64,000 nucleotides of DNA, from assembly GCA_012842495.1 (NCBI GenBank), contig DUSS01000045.1:134634-198633 (forward strand), given 5' to 3'. A program made the translations under genes and the position numbers. The stretch is from Candidatus Fermentithermobacillaceae bacterium (GTDB taxonomy: Bacteria; Bacillota; Sulfobacillia; Fermentithermobacillales; DUSS01). Below the pieces are notes generated by a model. It was not told where the DNA came from and did no database searches. It worked only from the letters and a program-made list of their open reading frames with translations. Shown piece by piece: positions 427 through 6,750 of the stretch (position 1 is the first letter of the stretch; each line of letters opens with the position of its first letter).

Positions 427-1311
427 ATGTGGATCTTCTGGGTTCTGGCGTCCCTCGTTGTGGTAGGATGGGGGACCGTCACCTGGGTCCAAACCCTCAA
501 AGCCAAGTTCGAACACACCCCCGAATCCAGGCTACTGTTGCTTGTGACCGCCGCCATCGCGCTGGCGCTGGGATGGCAGACCGCCCGCATGTTCGGGCCA
601 GGATGGTCCGCAAAGGTTCAGGCCGTCGCAGCTATCGGCGTTGGGGTAGTATACTTTGACATACTCTCTATTGCGCTGGTATCGATCTGGAAGGCGATTC
701 TCACTCTCGACATCGACGAAACCATATCAGGGCTGGAAGAAGAAGAGGAACGTCTCCGCCGCAAGCTGGATTCCCTCCGGTACGGTCGCTTCGCCGGTGA
801 CGTCATGGGGGCCGCGGGGGGCCCTGTGTACCCTGTCAGCCGGGTCGAAAAGGTGGAGGGGCCTGATGAGGAAATCTCGAGGCTCAGACGGATCGTGAAC
901 CGCTGGTTGGAGAGCGCCGGGATGACGAGGGTTCGCGCCTTGAAGCTTGAATCGTGGAAAGAAGAATACGCGCGGATGTCTCTGGACGAACTCGTGCGGG
1001 AAAAGAGACGGCTTGGGGAAGAGCGTCCGGCTGAACCCGGTGTCCGCGAACAGACCGAGGTCAGGATAGCTCTGATTGAGATGGAAATTCTTTCGCGTCA
1101 AGCTCGCCGGCTAGATGAAGGTACCATTAGCTCCGCCGGAGACCGGTCCTCTACCTCGTCAACCAGCCCGCTGGAAGGTGGCGGGGAGGAATCCGAGGAA
1201 CAGCTGAGGCGGAGGTTGGAAGAGATTTCAAGACAGGCCGCCCGGGCGCGGGCGGAGAAGGAAGCGTTCCTGAGAAGGAAGATAAGGCTTTCCTGGAGGG
1301 AGCGGGGATGA
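427..1311 (+). CDS. Membrane-anchored coiled-coil protein of unknown function
   Basis: N-terminal hydrophobic segments (MWIFWVLASLVVVGWGTV; VGVVYFDILSIALVSIW) then a Glu/Arg-rich coiled coil; stop overlaps the next start (ATGAG at 1308). Confidence 0.65.
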   Translation: MWIFWVLASLVVVGWGTVTWVQTLKAKFEHTPESRLLLLVTAAIALALGWQTARMFGPGWSAKVQAVAAIGVGVVYFDILSIALVSIWKAILTLDIDETISGLEEEEERLRRKLDSLRYGRFAGDVMGAAGGPVYPVSRVEKVEGPDEEISRLRRIVNRWLESAGMTRVRALKLESWKEEYARMSLDELVREKRRLGEERPAEPGVREQTEVRIALIEMEILSRQARRLDEGTISSAGDRSSTSSTSPLEGGGEESEEQLRRRLEEISRQAARARAEKEAFLRRKIRLSWRERG

Positions 1312-1754
1312 GTCTCATAAGCTCCTATAAAACCGATATCCGGCTGACACAGGCCCTGTCCGAAGGGAAGTCTGTGGAAGAGGATCCCGGGTGGGATATC
1401 TTACACGAGGCGGTTTGGGCTGCAGCTGACGAATTCACGGGCGAGGTCTCCCACAGCGTCAAAGATTTTTACGGGAGGACCTTTTACGCTGACTGGGCCA
1501 TTTCTACGCCGGAGATCCCCCGGGGCATCGGCATCAACGTCGATAGGAAGACGGGCCAGGTGATGTTCGTATACGATTCGTACGGGCTAGAAGGGTACGA
1601 GCGCCGTATTCAGGAAATCAAGGACAGGGTCCTTCAAAACTACTCGGCTATAGCTGTGTCGAAAGCGCTATCGCTACTAAACTATGAGGTTGATGTGGTA
1701 GAAGAAAAACATGCGACCGGCGGCAAGAAGGTGATCGTTACGGGGGTCCTCTAA
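1308..1754 (+). CDS. DUF1257 (Ycf35-like) protein
   Basis: Overall DUF1257 pattern (N-terminal S.I..YKT, ADWAI...GIGINVDRKTGQVMFVYDSYG, C-terminal NYEVDVVEEK); next to DUF2997 and Ycf46-like genes. Confidence 0.6.
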   Translation: MSLISSYKTDIRLTQALSEGKSVEEDPGWDILHEAVWAAADEFTGEVSHSVKDFYGRTFYADWAISTPEIPRGIGINVDRKTGQVMFVYDSYGLEGYERRIQEIKDRVLQNYSAIAVSKALSLLNYEVDVVEEKHATGGKKVIVTGVL

Positions 1755-1755
1755 G

Positions 1756-1983
1756 ATGACCAGGACTATTCGCGTGGAGATCTCGAAAAACGGACGGATC
1801 GAAGTGGATTTTCTGGGTTTTCCGGGAGAAACTTGTCTCGATGAGGAAGAGAATCTCACGGGGATATTGAAGAGTCTCGGTCTGTGGGCGGTACCGATTA
1901 CCATCGATAGAAAGGATACGGAACGGATAAGGCGGGAACTCGGCGCCGAGGAGGAACGGCGGAAGGAGGTCAAGGCCGAATGA
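1756..1983 (+). CDS. DUF2997 family small protein
   Basis: TRTIRVEISKNGRIEVDFLGFPGETCLDEEENL matches the DUF2997 pattern. Confidence 0.65.
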   Translation: MTRTIRVEISKNGRIEVDFLGFPGETCLDEEENLTGILKSLGLWAVPITIDRKDTERIRRELGAEEERRKEVKAE

Positions 1984-2204
1984 GGAAGGATTTGCCTCGA
2001 GCTGTGGCGCCAGGTTCCAGGCACCGTGAAGCCGACCGGTGTGTCGGCGCGTCTCCCGGGGGTTCCTATATGGAGGTGTGGATATCCGCCAGCCGCATAG
2101 ACGTATTCGAAAGACAGGGAGACGGGAAAACCGCGCGGCTAATCGAGGCCCTCAGAAAGCTCGGTCTCGAGATGCGGGCACGCACCGTATCCTTCTGCGG
2201 ATAA
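1980..2204 (+). CDS. Small hypothetical protein of the Ycf35/Ycf46 cassette (start could be 2070)
   Basis: ATGA overlap with the DUF2997 stop; ORF ends 12 nt before the AAA gene. Confidence 0.4.
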   Translation: MRKDLPRAVAPGSRHREADRCVGASPGGSYMEVWISASRIDVFERQGDGKTARLIEALRKLGLEMRARTVSFCG

Positions 2205-2216
2205 ACGGGGTGGCAA

Positions 2217-3965
2217 ATGAAAACCGGGGGTTATCTCGATGATTCCTGGATACAGAAGGCTCTCCTAAAACGAAAGGCCAATTACTCGCCTGTGATGTGC
2301 TTTGAGACGGTGGACCCCAAGCGCATCCTCCAGCTTAAGTCGTATGTGCTCACTTCGGAGGAGTTCTCCGGAATAGACCAGGTGTTCATCTACGATCCGT
2401 GGGACGGGCTGGGGTTGTTGAAACTGTCTCCGACGGGGCCAGTCACGGAGCCGTACAGGAAAAAACTCCAGTCCGAAACCCCGCTTGCTTCAAGGATCCG
2501 TCCGGATGGGCTGGTAGAGCTCCAAAACCTTAAGGCGGTCCTCAAAGAGGTGGACAGGTTTCTCAGGCAAAGAAGGACCGTGTTCATAATCCAGAACCTG
2601 TCCGAAGCGAGGGAGTTCGAAAGCGGTTTCCAGTCGGCCATCCGGGCCTGGGCCATAGATCCCCAGGTGATTTCCAACGGGTCGTCTGTATTCATCCTCA
2701 CCTCGGACGCGTCCAAGATCATGGACGACTTCACCAAAGACTTCGTGGTCATCATCCCGGTGGACCCATCCAGCGACGAGGAGAGGAGGCGTTTGGTCCA
2801 GGCGGTAGCTGCTGACCTGGAAGTACCCTGCGATTCGGAGAAGACGGAGCAGCTCGCGGTGGCCCTGGCCGGGCTCAACCTGCATCAGACCGAAAGCATT
2901 CTTCTGGAATCGTACCAGAGGACCCGCGATTTCGATCTCAGAACAATAAAGGATCTCAAATCTGACATGGTGAGGAAATCCAGGGTGCTCGAAGTCCGGG
3001 ATCCTCAGTGGAGGTTTACCGACATCGGCGGGTATCACGCCGTCAAGGAATTCGTGTCCAAATACATCGTGAACGTGCTCAAGCACTCGGACAGGGCGAG
3101 GTACTTCGGCCTATCTCTTCCCAAAGGCTTGCTCTTTTTCGGCCCTCCTGGCACCGGGAAAAGCCTATTTGCCAATGCGCTGGCCAGCGAAGTTCACCTG
3201 CCTTTCATATATCTGGTCACGGAAAACATCTATTCAAAGTGGTTGGGAGAATCCGGCCAAAACATGAAAAGCGCCATTACAATGGCGGAGAAGATGTCGC
3301 CGGCCATAGTGTTCGTGGATGAAATAGACAGGTTCGGCAAGAGAACAGGGGTCGCGGCGGGTTCCGCGGAAGAGGAGACCCAGCGGGTGTTCTCGCAATT
3401 CCTCGAATGGCTGGGCAATCCCTCCAGGGAAGCTATCATCGTCGGGACAACGAACGTGCCCGAACATCTGGACGAGGCCTTCACCCGGGCGGGTCGCTTC
3501 GACTATAAGATTCCCTTCCTCTACCCGGGGCCGCAGGCGCGGTTGGAGGTTCTCATGGTTCACCTGGGATTCGCCGAAGGTTCGAGGAGGCCGAAAGTGC
3601 CCCTGTCGATGGGACGAGAAGAGACCGCGGAGTTCTTGCGGGAACGCATAGTTCCGTTGACGAGAAATTTCTCTTGCGCCGAGCTGGAGGAGCTCGTGAC
3701 CAGGGCGAAGAGGATCGCCTTCGACAGGCAAGCCGAGGCGGTATCTGAGGAGGACCTTTTGAAAGCAACCCGCACATTCCGAATCGACCACGCTCACCGC
3801 AGGAGGGTTGTTCAGTCCTGCCTGGCCCAGGCCAGAAGGTTTACCGACGACCAGACGTTCCTCGATGCCATCGAGGAAGAAATGGGTTCGGCGGAATCGG
3901 ACGAAGAGTGGACGAGGAGCTCCCGGAACGCGTCTGCGACGGAGCCCGAGACGGGCCCGGGATAG
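2217..3965 (+). CDS. AAA+ ATPase, Ycf46-like
   Basis: Walker A GPPGTGKS, Walker B AIVFVDEID, second region of homology TTNVPEHLDEAFTRAGRFD; degenerate N-terminal ATPase-like region plus GLNLHQTESIL linker typical of Ycf46. Confidence 0.85.
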   Translation: MKTGGYLDDSWIQKALLKRKANYSPVMCFETVDPKRILQLKSYVLTSEEFSGIDQVFIYDPWDGLGLLKLSPTGPVTEPYRKKLQSETPLASRIRPDGLVELQNLKAVLKEVDRFLRQRRTVFIIQNLSEAREFESGFQSAIRAWAIDPQVISNGSSVFILTSDASKIMDDFTKDFVVIIPVDPSSDEERRRLVQAVAADLEVPCDSEKTEQLAVALAGLNLHQTESILLESYQRTRDFDLRTIKDLKSDMVRKSRVLEVRDPQWRFTDIGGYHAVKEFVSKYIVNVLKHSDRARYFGLSLPKGLLFFGPPGTGKSLFANALASEVHLPFIYLVTENIYSKWLGESGQNMKSAITMAEKMSPAIVFVDEIDRFGKRTGVAAGSAEEETQRVFSQFLEWLGNPSREAIIVGTTNVPEHLDEAFTRAGRFDYKIPFLYPGPQARLEVLMVHLGFAEGSRRPKVPLSMGREETAEFLRERIVPLTRNFSCAELEELVTRAKRIAFDRQAEAVSEEDLLKATRTFRIDHAHRRRVVQSCLAQARRFTDDQTFLDAIEEEMGSAESDEEWTRSSRNASATEPETGPG

Positions 3966-4010
3966 AGCTAGAAGATGGAACCTAATAAAAGCCGAAGAGA
4001 GGGATCAAGT

Positions 4011-4247
4011 ATGAGAGAAAAGGTCGAGGCCGTGTTGGAGAGCATACGTCCGCAGCTTCAGGCGGACGGAGGCAACGTAGAGCTTATCGATGTATCGGAA
4101 GATGGAGTCGTTAAGGTGAAGCTCACGGGGAGCTGCGGCGGTTGTCCCTTCGCCATGCTTACGTTAAAGGCCGGAATAGAGCGTGTGCTCAAACAAGAGG
4201 TACCGGGGGTCAAGGCGGTGGAGGCCGTCGGATTAACGACTCGTTGA
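4011..4247 (+). CDS. NifU C-terminal domain (Nfu-type) Fe-S scaffold protein
   Basis: VLESIRPQLQADGGNVELIDV...LTGSCGGCPFAMLTLKAGIERVLKQEVPGVKAVEAV with CxxC. Confidence 0.92.
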   Translation: MREKVEAVLESIRPQLQADGGNVELIDVSEDGVVKVKLTGSCGGCPFAMLTLKAGIERVLKQEVPGVKAVEAVGLTTR

Positions 4248-5157: not shown

Positions 5158-6750
5158 TTGGACGTGGACGCCCTCGAAGTCAGAAAAGAAGAGCTTCGCC
5201 TTGAAGAAGTAGTGGGCGAAGGTACCTCGCAGATCGTTATCTCCGAACCTGTATCTGTACCCGAGCCGAAGCCTGTAGTAGCATCCGTCATCGATTTCGC
5301 GGCGAGAACCCGTATCACCAGAGTAACCGTGCTGCCGGGCAAGGTAGTGGTGGACGGAGTTGTCTCCTTGTCCATCATTTACGAAGCGCAAGTCCCGTAC
5401 CAGACCGTTCACGTGTTCCATGCAGAAGTGGCGTTCAGCACGTTCGTGGAGATCCCGGGTGCCGAGCCGGGTATGGTCGCCGTTCCCGTTGTCACGGTAG
5501 AGCACGCCGCGTTTGAAGTACTGCCCGACGGAAGGACCGTCGTAGTTCGCATGGTACTCAGTATGTACGTGCGAGTGGTACGAACCGCCATCGTAGAGGT
5601 GGTGACCGACGTCTCCGGTATTCCGGGTCTGCAGGTCACGAAGGAGATGATCAAGGCCGAGACGGTTTTGGGCGAGGTCACGGCGCAGGCGGTGGTAAGG
5701 GAGCAGCTTACGGTTCCGGAAACGAAACCCCCGGTCGTCTCCATCATAGATTACGTGGCGACGGCCAACGTGACTACGACTACGGTGCTGCCCAATAAGG
5801 TGATAGTGAACGGTGTGATAAGTCTCCGCGTGATTTACGAAGCCAGGACGCCCTATCAGACGGTGCACGTGGCTCACTTTACGATACCTTTCGAAAGGTT
5901 CGTTGAGATCCCCGGCGCGCAACCCGGCATGGCGGTGGTGGCGGACGTGGCTGTGGAGTTCGTCGCCCTGGATGTCACGGCGAACGCAAGAGGCATCACA
6001 GCTCGAATCGTTATAGAAATCACCGCCAAGGTCGTCCGAGTACAGACGCTGCAGGTGGTCACAGGAGTCACAGGCGTAGCCGGCCTCGAGGTCGAGAAGG
6101 AACTGGTACGGGTTCAGGAGGTGCTGGGGGAGAACACCGCTCAAGCTATCGTGCGCGAACTCGTGGATGTGCCGCCCGAAAAGCCGCCTGTCGCCGCTGT
6201 ACTGGATTACTCGGCGACTCCGGAGGTCAAACGAACCATCGTTGCTCCCGGGAAGATCATAATAGATGGCGCCGTTGCTCAGCGCATTATCTACGAGCCC
6301 CTGATGGAACCCACCCAGACGGTTAGGACCCTGCACTTCACGGTGCCGTTCTCCGAATTCGTTGTGCTGCCTGAGGCGAAACCGGGTATGGTCGCCCGGG
6401 TATTCGTTCAGGTTGAGCACGTGAACTTCGAAGTGCCGCCTGCCGGGGAACCGGTGATGGTGACCAAAGTCCTGATGCTCACGGCCAGGGTCTTCAGAAC
6501 CAGGCAGGTTACCGTGGTTACGGCCGTCACTATCGGAAAACCCGCTTGCACCGGCGTGATCACGGCGAATTTGGTGAACGTGAGAGAAGGTCCCGGGATG
6601 ACCTACCCTGTCATTACCCAGGTCAACGTCGGGACCCAAGTATCGGTGCTCGAAGTAACTTCGGACTGGCTGCGAGTAAGGCTTCCTTCCGGGCAGGAGG
6701 GATGGGTATTCGCCCAGTTCGTGCGGCATGACTGCATGCCAAGGGGTTGA
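5158..6750 (+). CDS. Three SPOCS (DUF3794) repeats plus C-terminal SH3b domain protein
   Basis: Three ~155-aa repeats (E.VLGE.TAQ.VV.E...VPE.KP.V..IIDY...VLP.K.I..G.....IYEA....QTVH...) then VITANLVNVREGPGMTYPVITQVNVGTQVSVLEVTSDWLRVRLPSGQEGWVFAQFV; TTG start. Confidence 0.85.
   Translation: MDVDALEVRKEELRLEEVVGEGTSQIVISEPVSVPEPKPVVASVIDFAARTRITRVTVLPGKVVVDGVVSLSIIYEAQVPYQTVHVFHAEVAFSTFVEIPGAEPGMVAVPVVTVEHAAFEVLPDGRTVVVRMVLSMYVRVVRTAIVEVVTDVSGIPGLQVTKEMIKAETVLGEVTAQAVVREQLTVPETKPPVVSIIDYVATANVTTTTVLPNKVIVNGVISLRVIYEARTPYQTVHVAHFTIPFERFVEIPGAQPGMAVVADVAVEFVALDVTANARGITARIVIEITAKVVRVQTLQVVTGVTGVAGLEVEKELVRVQEVLGENTAQAIVRELVDVPPEKPPVAAVLDYSATPEVKRTIVAPGKIIIDGAVAQRIIYEPLMEPTQTVRTLHFTVPFSEFVVLPEAKPGMVARVFVQVEHVNFEVPPAGEPVMVTKVLMLTARVFRTRQVTVVTAVTIGKPACTGVITANLVNVREGPGMTYPVITQVNVGTQVSVLEVTSDWLRVRLPSGQEGWVFAQFVRHDCMPRG

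Follow-up and report, generated by a model that had tools for sequence, protein, structure and literature searches.

Ycf35, DUF2997 and Ycf46 are conserved protein families of plastids and cyanobacteria without a known biochemical role. Their canonical gene set, Ycf35 (a DUF1257 protein, PF06868)–DUF2997 (PF11211)–Ycf46, is found in cyanobacteria, plastids and plasmids; a cyanobacterial cluster comprises DUF2997, ycf35 and the ferredoxin gene fed7 (PMC4284462). In Synechocystis, according to PMC7496141, which cites Jiang 2015, ycf46 (slr0374) belongs to a multi-stress operon, and the activity of the carbonic anhydrase EcaB falls when this gene is lost. Here we describe a variant of this set in a 64,000-nucleotide stretch of contig DUSS01000045.1 (assembly GCA_012842495.1, positions 134,634 to 198,633 of the forward strand; hereafter the window) from a Candidatus Fermentithermobacillaceae bacterium. 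The cassette, at positions 427–3965 of the window, is a real five-gene unit that is strongly conserved within one little-studied class of the Bacillota. The interpretation that we tentatively favour is that of an AAA+ remodeller docked at the membrane, with DUF1257 and DUF2997 proteins as adaptors and possibly iron–sulfur (Fe-S) or redox proteins as clients.

The order DUF1257–DUF2997–(x)–AAA is common to the variant, to Nostoc plasmids and to G036, a genome of the same class with the canonical set. Like that set, the variant has homologous DUF1257 and DUF2997 proteins and a predicted two-tier ATPase. Unlike it, the variant has a DUF1257 protein that escapes Pfam, adds a membrane coiled-coil gene and a probable second, Cys-Gly-tailed DUF2997-like protein, and is without the radical S-adenosylmethionine (radical-SAM) or ferredoxin gene.

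All five genes lie on the plus strand. They encode the membrane coiled-coil protein (294 amino acids, positions 427–1311), the DUF1257/Ycf35-like protein (148 amino acids, 1308–1754), the DUF2997-like protein (75 amino acids, 1756–1983), the product of a short open reading frame (short ORF; 74 amino acids, 1980–2204, with a conserved core from 2070) and the AAA+ ATPase (582 amino acids, 2217–3965; Pfam AAA, 110 bits). An earlier note, made by reading the letters of the window, had described five packed, operon-like genes, and the coordinates agree with it: the genes overlap by ATGA at 1308 and 1980, and the remaining gaps, including that to the next gene downstream, are 1, 12 and 9 nucleotides. 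This spacing is compatible with a single transcript, which we infer only, because a promoter and terminator scan gave signals no stronger than those of shuffled sequences. A scan for inverted repeats found none.

The neighbourhoods of the window and 38 related loci (39 in total) were compared, the 38 spanning 21 family codes of the class. These loci were retrieved through the DUF1257-like gene, so that all locus counts are conditional on it, and some of the contigs stop within the AAA gene. In 39 of 39 loci the membrane, DUF1257-like, DUF2997-like and AAA genes follow the same order on one strand, with short gaps or overlaps in most of them. The short ORF is present in 38 of 39, located by profile in 31 loci and by reading the DUF2997–AAA gap in 7 more; the sole locus without it, L087, has no room for one. 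Since the five genes are co-directional and their order is kept in the window and the 38 loci, the arrangement is not due to chance.

The DUF1257-like protein occurs in 25 of 41 genomes, the window genome included, and its profile has a single match in each of 49 of the 154 class genomes, spread over 36 of 88 genera. All five matches in a sample of 399 genomes of the phylum fell inside the class and none outside, and the closest named proteins, at 93% and 92% identity, come from metagenome-assembled genomes of Candidatus Fermentithermobacillaceae. Canonical PF06868 is rare, with matches in 2 of the 154 class genomes and in 3 of the 399 genomes of the phylum sample; neither of the two class genomes carries the variant cassette.

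Pfam detects the two DUF families weakly in this branch. PF06868 did not match the window DUF1257-like protein, matched only 1 of 18 variant relatives (E = 0.017) and detected none of the variant proteins in genome searches. The window DUF2997-like protein reached 22.7 bits with PF11211, slightly below the gathering cut-off of 24.1 bits; 15 of 18 relatives matched at E ≤ 1 (best 2.6e-7), and the variant proteins of genomes G007, G020, G028 and G040 exceed the cut-off. On this basis, canonical members were gathered for profile–profile comparison from G036 and from plasmids of Pseudanabaena, Geminocystis, two Nostoc, Paenibacillus and Treponema, with column shuffles as controls (60 for the DUF1257 comparison). 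With hhalign, the DUF1257-like profile aligned to canonical DUF1257 over columns 1–131, nearly its whole length, at 96.8% (score 63.2, shuffle maximum 17.6), and the DUF2997-like profile aligned to canonical DUF2997 at 95.8% (score 46.1, shuffle maximum 13.3).

Judged by these profiles, both family calls of the earlier note are correct, the branch is divergent, and the cassette is under-called by standard databases. The note had named the lack of DUF1257 and DUF2997 profile matches, or a gene order not kept in relatives, as outcomes that would speak against it; in substance neither was observed, the Pfam matches being weak and the profile–profile matches clear.

Structure searches added little for these families. 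The AlphaFold2 (AF2) model of the DUF1257-like protein (predicted local distance difference test score, pLDDT, 81.6) had a best E of only 0.2 in a fold search of the PDB, and the profiles of the membrane, DUF1257-like and DUF2997-like proteins gave only coiled-coil or chance matches in the PDB. The same model matches the viral BFVD model A0A7S5REL3, an unnamed protein of 147 amino acids (E = 3.4e-5, probability 1.00), which may be a phage relative missed by sequence search; a search of phages with the window protein gave no match. Two Prochlorococcus phages, P-SSM2 (L109:3802-4381) and P-SSM7 (L110:3832-4384), carry an overlapping DUF2997–DUF1257 pair annotated as hypothetical, which scores 64.5 and 85.5 bits in Pfam for P-SSM2 and is followed in P-SSM7 by psbA and a ferredoxin gene. 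Cyanophages have captured the host DUF2997–DUF1257 module.

The ATPase consists of a degenerate AAA domain (about residues 10–255; D1), which is without Walker A, followed by an active AAA domain (D2). Residue conservation was scored on 35 aligned AAA sequences. Walker A (GPPGTGKS), Walker B (DE, 368–369), sensor-1 Asn413 and the arginines R424 and R427 of the second region of homology (SRH) are invariant among them, which bears out the intact Walker motifs first read from the window. The pore loop K341-W342-L343-G344 (K-W-L/F-G) has its Trp in 34 of 35 sequences, and such a loop fits substrate threading as in Cdc48 and FtsH.

In the AF2 model of the ATPase (pLDDT 75.8) two AAA modules are seen, and Foldseek aligned about 600 columns with p97/Cdc48 D1–D2 at a template modelling (TM) score of up to 0.61; Rix7 was also among the tandem AAA matches. 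The protein thus models as a Cdc48-like tandem with a degenerate D1 and an active D2 bearing a Trp pore loop. With the Cdc48/p97 and Rix7 unfoldases, the best solved structures over both AAA domains, it has in common the aromatic pore loop and the SRH arginines. Unlike Cdc48/p97, its D1 is without Walker A and the p97 N-domain is missing, and its genetic partners are DUF1257 and DUF2997 proteins instead of Ufd1-Npl4 or Shp1.

The relation to Ycf46 is more complex. The window ATPase and the plasmid Ycf46-like proteins align colinearly (hhalign 99.9%) and have the layout of a degenerate N-terminal and an active C-terminal AAA domain in common; compared on its own, the N-terminal region scored 20.3 against Ycf46 N-termini, within column shuffles (maximum 23.2). 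A blind plasmid search with the window ATPase returned ATPases adjoining DUF1257 and/or DUF2997 genes in Paenibacillus, Vibrio and Arthrobacter: that of Paenibacillus polymyxa is flanked by DUF1257, DUF2997 and radical-SAM genes, that of Vibrio by DUF1257-like and DUF2997-like genes (weak in Pfam, clear in hhalign) and that of Arthrobacter by DUF2997-like and NrdG-like genes. A Treponema ATPase from this search adjoins a radical-SAM gene, and the Microvirga Cdc48 and Tolypothrix ATPases that it also returned have no DUF1257, DUF2997 or radical-SAM neighbours. It should be noted that the Treponema succinifaciens plasmid pTRESU01 carries a DUF1257 gene (L102:6010-6417) among contractile-tail genes (sheath, baseplate) and, elsewhere (L112:1521-3676), a radical-SAM and AAA pair ahead of a second baseplate V gene.

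Two AAA trees, both unrooted, resolve the variant, the canonical Ycf46-like proteins and Cdc48/FtsH as separate supported clades on long branches, so that orthology of the variant ATPase with Ycf46 is not settled by them. Cyanobacterial plasmid ATPases have an S-L-V-G loop and an LPPEL-type motif where the variant has the Trp pore loop and a classical SRH (LDEAF.R.GRF). The label "Ycf46-type" given to the ATPase at first reading therefore stands for its architecture and gene company, in which these comparisons make it Ycf46-like, but not for its place in the trees, which do not put it within the Ycf46-like clade.

The ATPase also gave the only PADLOC match of the cassette, to IetA (106.9 bits), and together with the occurrence of DUF1257 sets on plasmids and in cyanophages and with their Hsp70/WD40 company this could suggest a defence or conflict system. 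We regard this as very improbable. The match is limited to the AAA core, was judged generic and was rejected as evidence of IetA identity; the subtilase partner IetS is missing, the gene set differs from IetAS, and the other five proteins have no PADLOC match. No effector, nuclease or vWA gene is present in the cassette; for the vWA domain that defines MoxR-vWA ternary conflict systems, Pfam found none in the cassette proteins, and the conflict-system paper PMC7159879 has no mention of Ycf46, DUF1257 or DUF2997. Moreover, the variant is chromosomal and slow-evolving and lies beside AIRS or dnaE in at least a dozen loci: an upstream AIRS gene is common to 14 of the 38 related loci and dnaE to 12, which indicates a stable chromosomal site in part of the class. 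In the window, the 3′ end of this AIR-synthase-related gene (HypE/PurM-like fold) occupies positions 1–176 on the plus strand, outside the cassette, the AIRS and AIRS_C matches having been obtained on the full gene (L111:9728-10810).

The first gene of the cassette points to the membrane. Its product has N-terminal hydrophobic segments followed by a charged coiled coil with a conserved W..GG.aRvRslKV.eW motif; in hydropathy analysis, two peaks of the window copy exceed the cut-off, against three in each of four relatives, and all lie N-terminal to the coiled coil. The new membrane component that the earlier note had placed ahead of the cassette is indeed fixed in all 39 loci and has no family in Pfam, NCBIfam or PADLOC. 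It is the fastest-evolving protein of the set (18–37% identity to the window copy outside the genus), and the ATPase keeps at least 57% identity across the class, as one would expect if the ATPase is the core engine and the membrane protein a variable tether.

The remodeller reading combines these features as follows. The five gene products would form one multi-protein machine, in which the AAA+ protein assembles into a ring like that of Cdc48, its D1 tier inactive and its D2 tier hydrolysing ATP and threading substrate. Dedicated adaptor or cargo subunits of the ATPase would be the DUF1257-like protein together with the DUF2997-like protein and the short ORF product, a probable second protein of DUF2997 fold, and the coiled coil of the membrane protein would tether the machine at the inner face of the cytoplasmic membrane. 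Most likely, such a machine would pull on, remodel or extract particular client proteins; going by the recurrent Fe-S and redox neighbours described below, these clients may hold Fe-S clusters or be redox-dependent, and this is the weaker half of the reading.

The two small proteins allow a different role. The DUF2997-like protein has an invariant G-F and Cys27 within a GF.G..C motif. The short ORF product, to which Pfam, NCBIfam and PADLOC scans assign no family, is conserved over its C-terminal 44 residues (ER.G.G...L...L..LGL.......S.CG), and all 38 of its 38 copies terminate in Cys-Gly-stop; conserved SY residues before 2070 in several relatives favour the start at 1980. Its profile aligned to the variant DUF2997 profile at 91.5% (score 33.7, shuffle maximum 13.9), with other profiles at or below 8% and canonical DUF2997 not matched (0.2%). 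The alignment makes it a probable DUF2997 paralogue, in which the internal Cys was lost and another acquired at the C-terminus. What had been noted simply as a short ORF is a conserved gene, whose probable paralogy and invariant ending had been missed. A hypothetical protein at the corresponding position of a Nostoc plasmid was considered as a counterpart and rejected as unrelated.

That both proteins are tiny, carry invariant Cys residues (Cys27 and the C-terminal Cys-Gly) and are encoded between larger genes would also fit products or cargo that are matured, presented or exported by the AAA+, DUF1257 and membrane proteins, with a radical-SAM enzyme present at canonical loci. We consider this improbable, as no leader–core layout or cleavage motif was seen in these proteins, the variant loci are without a fixed modifying enzyme or exporter, and the DUF2997 gene is as constant as the ATPase gene.

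The possible link of the remodeller to Fe-S proteins was first suggested by the gene directly behind it, at 3975–4247 (plus strand, probable true start 4011). It encodes a clear member of the Nfu/NifU C-terminal-domain Fe-S carriers (PF01106, 97.4 bits) with the paired cysteines CGGC, and the window genome has no other NifU-domain gene. A NifU-domain gene lies downstream on the same strand in 15 of the 39 loci, in 12 of these within 130 nucleotides, mostly in the family of the window genome and its sister family. The adjacency that the earlier note reported is real but not fixed, and, being unlinked or absent in many cassette genomes, the gene is an optional neighbour of the cassette and not a part of it. 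Shortly downstream, at 5158–6750, the window encodes a sporulation-type protein that contains three SPOCS (SipL) domains and ends in a bacterial SH3 domain.

Other Fe-S genes recur at related loci. A 4Fe-4S ferredoxin gene follows the variant cassette at locus L049 (genome G019), and Fer4_12/radical-SAM genes adjoin the canonical set in G036, two Paenibacillus and Arthrobacter, and the AAA gene in Treponema. The recurrence of differing Fe-S neighbours is suggestive of an Fe-S or redox link, not proof of one; the radical-SAM 4Fe-4S proteins and ferredoxins at other DUF1257/DUF2997/AAA loci lend the Fe-S idea indirect support.

Several observations weigh against the favoured reading. Two genomes with the cassette, G019 and G025, lack a NifU-domain gene altogether; in G017 and G026 the gene is not linked to the cassette, and in G040 about 10 kb separate the two. 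The Fe-S link may therefore be a coincidence. Moreover, the radical-SAM gene of the canonical set is missing from the variant cassette. The three long-branched AAA clades make it unsafe to transfer knowledge of Ycf46 to the variant, and among the papers searchable no experimental function of DUF1257 or DUF2997 was found.

In another explanation, the cassette would encode a chaperone for stress-related or housekeeping quality control of the membrane that has no specific tie to Fe-S proteins, and its NifU and ferredoxin neighbours would be due to chance or co-expression. The multi-stress operon of Synechocystis ycf46 and the drop in EcaB activity on its loss, as given in PMC7496141, are in line with it, and Nfu is not obligatory. 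In G036 (L077:1177-8123) and on the Pseudanabaena plasmid (L100:3864-12021), canonical Ycf35, DUF2997 and Ycf46 genes stand in one block with genes for GrpE, Hsp70 and a WD40-repeat protein, so that at these two loci the set has protein-remodelling factors as neighbours. Against this explanation, separate lineages repeatedly show an Fe-S neighbour, the Fe-S protein differing among them, and we rate the chaperone explanation as rather unlikely.

Taken together, the cassette makes the remodeller a testable proposal, that of an AAA+ protein with small Cys-protein adaptors, and the recurrent radical-SAM, ferredoxin or Nfu neighbour supplies a concrete candidate class of clients. In its most specific form, which we put forward as a doubtful conjecture, the cassette would be an as yet undescribed, membrane-anchored bacterial Cdc48-like machine specific to one Bacillota class, whose paired DUF2997-fold Cys proteins, one of them with Cys-Gly at its C-terminus, deliver or hold Fe-S or redox clients for AAA+ remodelling at the membrane. 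The existence of a compact, strictly conserved non-photosynthetic version means that photosynthesis is no longer the only frame for the function of these families, to which the cassette adds two new partners, a small protein with a Cys-Gly tail and a putative membrane tether. If the conjecture holds, the Ycf35/DUF2997/Ycf46 set of cyanobacteria and plastids would likewise be a machine of this kind.

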